DNA from: an uncultured Verrucomicrobiota bacterium
GTDB lineage: Bacteria > Verrucomicrobiota > Verrucomicrobiia > Opitutales > Seribacteraceae
Assembly: GCA_902615835.1 (NCBI GenBank)
Contig: CACMQL010000004.1
Coordinates: forward strand, 1 to 64,000
Reading direction: 5' to 3'
DNA: 64,000 nucleotides
The notes below the pieces were generated by a model. The model had not been told where the DNA came from. It saw only the letters and a list, made by a program, of their open reading frames with translations, and did not search any database. The position numbers and the translations under genes were made by a program. Shown one piece after another: positions 28,046-29,353 of this stretch. The stretch's first letter is position 1. Each line of letters opens with the position of its first letter.

Positions 28046-29353
28046 ATGATAGCTGCTGATACATTAAGCTTTGCCCGTTCTGTTGCCAAAGAGCTTGATC
28101 ATGCTCACCTCAAGCGAAGTGAGCATATTAAGCACATTTCGGCGGGTAAAAAAATTGTGAATTCCGGCGACGATGTCGGTGCTCTTTCTATGCAAATGAA
28201 ACAGTCCGGGGAGCTCCGGCGTCTGCAGAAGGTCAAACACACCTTGCAAAACGCCAAATCCTACCTGCAGGCACGGGACAGTGCCCTCGCGGCGGTTCAC
28301 ACAATTTATGACCGAATGGGAACCTTGGCTACGATGGCCATGGATGTAACTAAAACTGATCAAGACCGCGACAAATATAAGACTGAATTCGAGGAACTCC
28401 GCACCGCCGCTCTGGAAATATCGAGAGAAAAGTTTAACGGAATCCATCTCTTTCGGGACAAGTCCTACACCCTAGTTAATAAGAATTCCAATATTAATTG
28501 GTCGAACGCAAAGGCCGAAGTCGACGCCCTCAATGCTTCCGATCAAAGTAATACTCATTATTTAGCAACTATTACCAGTGAATTGGAACAGGCTGAAATA
28601 GCATTCCAAATTGGAGAAGTAGGCATCAATGCCTGGCTAGGAGGAAATGATGCTGCTATTGAAGGAGATTGGCGATGGACCGAGGGTCCCGAAGGAGAGG
28701 CGAATAATGGAACTGGCACTCCCTTTTGGAGTGGTGCAACGAATGGAAAGTTGATAGCAAACATGTTCGAAAAATGGGGGCGTAATCCAAATTCAGGTCT
28801 TCAGAACGAACCAAATAACGCTGGTGATGGAGAAAATTATCTTCAGATTAGCCAAGTATTGCAACCTGACGGTACGCGTGGGGCATGGAATGATTTAGAA
28901 GATACAAGTTCAACTGGTGCGAATTATCAACCGCGAGGATATGTCCGAGAAACTGACCAAGCTTCCCTTCAGCAGCAAAGAAATGAATTCGCCGGCAGTT
29001 TCGAGATCGCCAACGGCCTCTTCCAAAAATTTATTTTCAGTTCCATGGTTGGAGTGGGCACCATCCCGGAGGCCCAAAAGTCACTCAGTATACTTGATGA
29101 TGCACTCGATGGAATCGTGGATGCCCGGGCGATGACCGGAGCGTCTTTGTCACGAATTGACAGGGAGTACGAGAAGCTGGAAAGTTCTTATGTGCAAAAG
29201 GAGCAATCCCTGGGTCGTATCGAGGATCTGGATATGGCCCGGGCCGCCACCCAACTGGCAAAAGCAGAAATTAAACTCCAGTCGTCGGCAAAAGTCTTTG
29301 CTCATGCCAATAATTTGTTCAGCAAGCGAAATTATGTGGAAGAACTTCTTTGA
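28046..29353 (+). CDS. Flagellin with C-type-lectin-like domain in the central variable region
   Basis: Flagellin-N-like 'HISAGKKIVNSGDDVGALSMQMKQSGELRRLQ...SYLQARDSALAAVHTIYDRMGTLA...EFNGIHLF'-type sequence and flagellin-C-like 'SLGRIEDLDMARAATQLAKAEIKLQSSAKVFAHANNLFSKRNYVEELL'; between them 'WSNAKAEVDAL...LATITSELEQAEI...INAWLGGNDAAIEGDWRWTEGPEG...FWSG...ENYLQI...GAWNDLED...GYVRE'. Confidence 0.88.
   Translation: MIAADTLSFARSVAKELDHAHLKRSEHIKHISAGKKIVNSGDDVGALSMQMKQSGELRRLQKVKHTLQNAKSYLQARDSALAAVHTIYDRMGTLATMAMDVTKTDQDRDKYKTEFEELRTAALEISREKFNGIHLFRDKSYTLVNKNSNINWSNAKAEVDALNASDQSNTHYLATITSELEQAEIAFQIGEVGINAWLGGNDAAIEGDWRWTEGPEGEANNGTGTPFWSGATNGKLIANMFEKWGRNPNSGLQNEPNNAGDGENYLQISQVLQPDGTRGAWNDLEDTSSTGANYQPRGYVRETDQASLQQQRNEFAGSFEIANGLFQKFIFSSMVGVGTIPEAQKSLSILDDALDGIVDARAMTGASLSRIDREYEKLESSYVQKEQSLGRIEDLDMARAATQLAKAEIKLQSSAKVFAHANNLFSKRNYVEELL
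28460..28954 (+). other. C-type lectin-like domain segment inside flagellin
   Basis: WLGG-(x)n-EGDWRW-(x)n-WSG-(x)n-ENY-(x)n-WND-(x)n-GYVRE order as in CTLD proteins. Confidence 0.85.

Follow-up and report, generated by a model that had tools for sequence, protein, structure and literature searches.

Introduction

Flagellinolysin (FlaMP), the proteolytic flagellin of Clostridium haemolyticum, Hylemonella gracilis, and others (PMC5595980, PMC7643111), is the precedent for flagellins that carry a foreign functional domain. Its D0/D1 ends are intact, and a zinc metallopeptidase in the hypervariable region decorates the filament. Flagellinolysins occur in diverse phyla, and possible other functions at the hypervariable position have been raised (PMC5595980).

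C-type lectin domains are best known from animal immune proteins. Calcium at site 2 and the sugar are bound through the EPN motif, a later glutamate, and the WND motif; mannose-type ligands go with EPN and galactose-type ligands with QPD (PMC5379193).

Here we describe a gene, in the 64-kb stretch of DNA that was analysed (the window), whose product we call lectin-flagellin. As in flagellinolysin, its D0/D1 ends are intact and its hypervariable region holds a foreign domain. Unlike flagellinolysin, its insert is a non-enzymatic C-type lectin-like domain (CTLD), found so far in two Opitutia families; the HExxH motif of the flagellinolysin zinc metallopeptidase is not in the 435-aa sequence. The insert shares its fold, core motifs, and EPN-E-WND site motif with CEL-I, MBP-A, langerin, DC-SIGN, and collectin-11, but it is bacterial, lacks cysteines and disulfides, and sits within a flagellin. 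The open-access literature that we searched describes no lectin-flagellin, only flagellinolysins, and most subscription papers lie outside its coverage. Within that literature, the lectin-flagellin is apparently an undescribed kind of domain-carrying flagellin, in agreement with the initial annotation, which knew of no such architecture.

We consider it likely (probability about 0.72) that the protein acts as a filament subunit through which the flagellum binds glycans in a calcium-dependent manner. Its export and assembly into the filament, its binding of calcium and glycans, the class of ligand, and an adhesive role are inferred.

Flagellin ends of the protein

The features of the locus are listed in Table 1. 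In the product, Pfam Flagellin_N matches aa 15–138 (E 5.2e-15, 56.2 bits against a cut-off of 26.6), and Flagellin_C matches aa 347–424 (E 8e-11, 42.6 bits against a cut-off of 23). The insert starts where the Flagellin_N match ends and is therefore at the D2/D3 position. When the whole protein is compared with the PDB by sequence, the matches are flagellins. Modelled whole with AlphaFold (18 sequences, mean pLDDT 75.9), the protein has the long D0/D1 helices and the strand/helix order of a CTLD, and the 50 listed PDB matches of this model are all structures of flagellins or filaments (best E 2.9e-10).

Table 1 Features of the lectin-flagellin locus in the window.
Feature	Coordinates	Strand	Basis or remark
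Candidate CsrA-binding hairpin in the leader	27928..27947	+	Consensus match, conserved in L062
Lectin-flagellin ORF (P0001)	28046..29353	+	435 aa; start is the first ATG past a stop; zero cysteines
N-terminal flagellin core (D0/D1), aa 1–138	28046..28459	+	Pfam Flagellin_N; long helices in the AlphaFold model
C-type lectin-like domain at the D2/D3 position, aa 139–304	28460..28957	+	Sequence profiles and structure prediction
EPN motif E255-P256-N257 (mannose/GlcNAc/fucose type), calcium-site-2 loop position	28808..28816	+	13 of the 14 compared flagellin CTLDs have EPN
E263, calcium/sugar-ligand position	28832..28834	+	Invariant in alignments A1 and A2; aligned with E of CEL-I
WND motif W281-N282-D283, calcium/sugar-ligand positions	28886..28894	+	Invariant in alignments A1 and A2
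Linker with predicted beta-hairpin (aa ~305–346) and C-terminal flagellin core (aa 347–435)	28958..29350	+	Pfam Flagellin_C; model helix 340–427

The top NCBIfam match is TIGR02550 (FlgL), at 93.9 bits under a cut-off of 127.2, which raises the possibility that the protein is FlgL (hook-associated protein 3), whose ends are likewise D0/D1-like. The FlgL of the same genome scores just 116.6 on this model, so a tree of the ends is the better test. In the tree of terminal domains, the 21 FlgL rows form their own branch (100/100), and every lectin-flagellin falls on the flagellin side. FlgL identity is ruled out by this tree and by the separate FlgL in the genome. The product is thus a flagellin by its ends, as judged by Pfam, tree, and predicted structure; its assembly into a filament is inferred.

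The insert is a C-type lectin-like domain

On the whole protein, Pfam Lectin_C gives only E 0.033, under its gathering cut-off. When the insert alone is compared with the PDB by phmmer, exclusively C-type lectin-fold proteins appear up to E 1, among them CLEC4F, langerin, aggrecan, and the mannose receptor (best 5.8e-4). A profile built from 14 orthologous inserts finds CEL-I at 5.7e-10, followed by aggrecan, MBP-A, and langerin, and Lectin_C matches 13 of those inserts (best 1.2e-7). An HMM of 46 non-flagellin CTLDs only gives the insert 138 bits over aa 140–304, whereas 2000 insert shuffles score 8.1 at most, which argues against chance resemblance.

The AlphaFold model of the insert alone (60 sequences) reaches pLDDT 95.8 and pTM 0.91. 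All 50 listed Foldseek matches of this model in the PDB are C-type lectin domains, including an EPNH mutant of CEL-I, collectin-11, DC-SIGN, the mannose receptor, langerin, and MBP; E values are 3e-7 to 2e-5 for CEL-I, MBP-A, langerin, DC-SIGN, and collectin-11. By sequence profile and predicted fold, residues ~139–304 are a complete CTLD.

None of the 14 flagellin inserts contains a cysteine, and the conserved disulfides of animal C-type lectins are therefore absent. We considered cysteine loss as an adaptation to flagellar export and rejected it, because 41 of the 46 non-flagellin CTLD relatives are likewise cysteine-free; the lack of cysteines is a pre-adaptation at most.

The initial annotation had claimed intact flagellin D0/D1-like ends, a CTLD at the D2/D3 position (aa 139–303), and the motif order WLGG - EGDWRW - WSG - ENY - WND - GYV. 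All three claims held, the last as a real CTLD framework in which the calcium/sugar-ligand residues are present. A non-CTLD fold, or ends that fail to match flagellin profiles, had been named as refutations, and both points came out in favour of a lectin-flagellin.

Calcium- and sugar-site motifs

The site-2 set, EPN or QPD followed by E and ND, is present in 14/14 flagellin CTLDs of the window's family. The positions of E255, N257, E263, N282, and D283 are retained although the neighbouring loops differ in length. The same EPN-E-WND set occurs in 43 of the 46 non-flagellin bacterial CTLDs. Ligand roles are assigned here by motif position and not by the metal-site geometry of the model. The sole exception to EPN is copy A of a tandem pair of lectin-flagellins in one single-cell genome (AG-430-C07; L068:2810-4102 and 4146-5411), which has the galactose-type QPD, while copy B has the mannose-type EPN.

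The ligand-motif positions of sugar-binding C-type lectins are thus conserved. Calcium and glycan binding and the class of ligand are inferred, in the absence of binding data, and a conserved motif is not proof of sugar binding: many CTLDs of the same fold bind proteins, ice, or nothing.

Orthologues and descent in the window's family

A query of genome contigs with the single sequence returned no orthologue, whereas an alignment query recovered orthologues in 20 of the 42 genomes of the window's family and in three of its four genera; the fourth, g2, has none in its eight genomes. About half of the family genomes are without the gene, and many of those are incomplete. The named carriers are marine Opitutia/Verrucomicrobia metagenome-assembled and single-cell genomes. 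At most orthologue loci the gene position is common to different genera; a different place is common to the window and its relative L062 (80% identity), and a third to L071, L073, and L079. The L079 protein (L079:447-3008) is an 854-aa flagellin, in which the CTLD is followed by ~470 more residues ahead of the C-terminal flagellin domain. In another genome, a lectin-flagellin remnant (L180, G001:C4:33500-36500) is interrupted by stops and frame changes and is apparently a pseudogene.

The distribution bears on the rival that the gene is a chance resemblance or an assembly chimera of a flagellin and a lectin gene. In favour of a chimera, the window comes from a genome that is 61% complete and in 91 contigs. 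The same fusion occurs in the 20 genomes, single-cell ones included, with shared synteny, which rules out a chimera; with the bit scores given above, this rival is all but excluded.

Between the window and L062, the NG86 dN/dS of the CTLD is about 0.09, with saturated dS. Subject to that saturation, the lectin-flagellin is under purifying selection, and its D0/D1 ends are kept complete.

The nearest sequence relatives of the insert are bacterial CTLDs of large secreted proteins of FG-GAP/laminin-G/PKD/T9SS type (L110, L080, L109, L086), which, unlike the host of the insert, are multidomain secreted or surface proteins and not flagellins. In the CTLD tree, the insert groups (95/89 for the set) with CTLDs from giant FG-GAP/laminin-G proteins of its own lineage, and these proteins are a plausible nearby source. 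The window's own genome has other Lectin_C domains (G000:C5:47322-50222 and G000:C81:606-788), two of them within a ~5000-aa open frame of contig C5. A scan of viral contigs yielded no relative, and no reverse transcriptase of a diversity-generating retroelement was recognised, by eye only, among the window ORFs.

One origin within the window's family has support 78/69 in one tree and 13/73 in the ends tree with the divergent L028, and the CTLD tree needs two changes for these lectin-flagellins. A single fusion inside the family is therefore not rejected but poorly supported, leaving one or two origins.

A second fusion in family f54

Full-length matches to the lectin-flagellin are otherwise absent from 385 genomes of the class and 390 of the phylum, but L140 (L140:979-2130, G319), a flagellin of the Opitutia family f54, has a divergent CTLD. 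This CTLD scores 27.0 bits on Lectin_C (cut-off 22.6) and matches the mannose receptor at E 7e-12, but lacks the EPN and WND motifs. A relative in another f54 genus, L206 (L206:1495-2604, G704), has an exemplary architecture, with 85 bits on Flagellin_N, 54.2 on Lectin_C, and 68.9 on Flagellin_C; its insert contains GEPND, GEDY, and WND, so that EPN-E-WND is kept. The full-length matches had suggested confinement to one family, a view that we dropped once CTLDs were recognised in L140, where the domain is divergent, and in L206, where it is clear. Two more full-length flagellin matches, L207 and L226, were rejected as further fusions; their inserts lack CTLD motifs, as judged by eye. The search for other flagellins with inserted CTLDs that the initial annotation had proposed thus returned the family orthologues and the f54 pair.

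In the tree of flagellin ends, L206 and L140 lie among the ordinary flagellins of their own family, and a single clade for all lectin-flagellins is rejected (p-AU 0.011). One of the tested groups was named after seeing one tree, and long branches are present, so the test is strong but not final. CTLDs seem to have been placed into flagellins at least twice, apparently independently and from different flagellins, and the combination therefore seems repeatedly selected.

An alternative is that the CTLD is a purely structural outer domain, which would stabilise the filament by contacts between subunits and bind no sugar. Flagellin outer domains are freely variable and can aid motility in viscous media (PMC8931119, PMC10256154), and L140 lacks the sugar-site motifs. 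Against this stand the five ligand residues retained amid loops of variable length and the one exception in the window's family, QPD, which is a known galactose-type alternative and not decay. We regard the structural reading as unlikely and prefer a sugar-binding domain.

Flagellar genes outside the window

The initial annotation had called the gene an orphan, with no other flagellar gene in the 64 kb. This held for the window: inspection of it revealed no further flagellar gene, nor did a scan of the neighbours. A flagellar system and canonical flagellins, whose presence the annotation had left to be checked, lie on other contigs of the 61%-complete genome. These carry FlhA, FliS and FliD adjoining canonical flagellins, an FlgK-like gene, FlgL, FliW, and a CsrA read directly downstream of FliW. 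The lectin-flagellin is therefore an orphan by location only, outside the main flagellin cluster.

The separate location favours another rival, in which a minor or secreted flagellin is exported by the flagellar apparatus and acts mainly as a soluble lectin or a lectin at the tip or junction. Canonical flagellins also in the genome and TIGR02550 as the best, sub-cut-off NCBIfam match (see above) favour it too. Against it, the genome's own FlgL adjoins FlgK and FliW, the ends tree separates all FlgL, and complete D0/D1 ends are maintained under selection. This rival is also unlikely; we retain the filament-subunit reading.

Several other proteins of these genomes are unusual. The FlgL of the window's genome (L044:2839-6441) has 1201 aa, with ~900 extra residues between its ends. 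A 959-aa flagellin (L042:6784-9660, G000:C3) is one of the giant flagellins, with L174, L176, and L179; these have about 930–1010 aa and ~700-aa inserts, and four of the eight scanned have a CBM_5_12-like stretch (chitin-binding type) just under the Pfam cut-off. A second unusual class (L066:4768-6243, L067:1137-4269, L075:7466-10748, L078:7443-10761, L077:4798-6225, and L042:17113-18951) comprises flagellins of 465–613 aa with two cysteines apiece, mostly MQLTNY or MELTNY starts, and an unidentified insert; in other genera it adjoins the lectin-flagellin. The window itself holds a sulfatase gene (47939–49336, Pfam Sulfatase 4e-55), which fits the use of sulfated polysaccharides.

Candidate CsrA control

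In the leader, positions 27931–27942 read ATACAAGGATGT, which agrees with the CsrA SELEX consensus RUACARGGAUGU (PMC7652899) at 12 of 12 positions and lies inside a predicted hairpin. The orthologue L062 has the same hairpin, and sites with no more than two mismatches occur in six more orthologue genes (L063, L064 copy A, L068 copy A, L071, L072, and L074). Among 128 control upstream regions, none has a site with up to one mismatch and one has a site with up to two. Several orthologues lack such a site; some own and neighbouring flagellins have similar GGA-loop hairpins. The hairpin is predicted to fold but does not exceed shuffles in stability, and support for it therefore comes from the agreement in sequence and its conservation. 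The putative site is ~110 nt upstream of the start codon, and the transcript start is unknown. CsrA control is thus suggested, not shown.

Discussion

In the model that we favour, the outer domain of a flagellin would have given way to a C-type lectin carbohydrate-recognition domain that depends on calcium and has no cysteine. The D0/D1 ends would lead to export via the flagellar type III apparatus and to packing into the filament, in which the lectin-flagellin, alongside the cell's canonical flagellins, would probably be a minor or stage-specific component. The CTLD at the D2/D3 position would face outward on the filament surface, and one EPN-type sugar site per subunit (mannose, GlcNAc, or fucose class) would make the filament multivalent and provide avidity. 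Such a filament may serve as a fibre that adheres to or grips glycans of algae, particles, or cell surfaces in the sea, and synthesis would probably be coupled to the flagellar programme by CsrA–FliW acting on the leader.

This reading rests on the flagellin ends, the CTLD fold, the kept motifs, inheritance, purifying selection, the flagellar apparatus, the CsrA site, and the second fusion. Against it count the lack of binding, expression, or filament data, the loss of motifs in L140, the half of the family genomes without the gene, the location outside the flagellin cluster, the absence of an evident Shine-Dalgarno sequence near the ATG, the limits of the putative CsrA site given above, and the FlgL model as best, though sub-cut-off, NCBIfam match. 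The polyvalent carbohydrate-binding or adhesive fibre proposed by the initial annotation accordingly remains an inference, as regards both binding and assembly.

A further rival is that the lectin binds the cell's own glycans, such as glycosylated flagellin, capsule, or LPS, and bundles filaments or tethers them to the cell surface. Glycosylation is common among bacterial flagellins, and multivalency favours bundling. Without a dedicated search, no flagellin-glycosylation gene was noticed next to the lectin-flagellin gene. Nothing specific supports this possibility, which we consider very unlikely, and binding to external glycans remains the preferred reading.

A bolder reading, which we put forward tentatively and on balance do not adopt, is that the flagellar filament in this lineage is a modular glycan-binding organelle under CsrA–FliW control, which would capture or sense marine polysaccharides while the cell swims. 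Its parts would be CTLD subunits of EPN and QPD type (QPD in a single tandem copy), which would have arisen from different flagellins at least twice, and the giant flagellins with CBM5/12-like stretches.

The lectin-flagellin would widen the flagellinolysin precedent from enzymes to lectins. Filament-borne adhesion is directly testable here through mutation of the EPN and WND residues, and a natural EPN/QPD pair is available in one single-cell genome. A self-assembling multivalent lectin fibre also suggests itself as a tool. Adhesion of flagella to glycans is often reported, usually with no domain dedicated to it, whereas the lectin-flagellin has a recognisable one: a sugar-binding domain with its motif kept, in a filament protein, inherited across genera of the window's family, in a combination that is repeated in another family.
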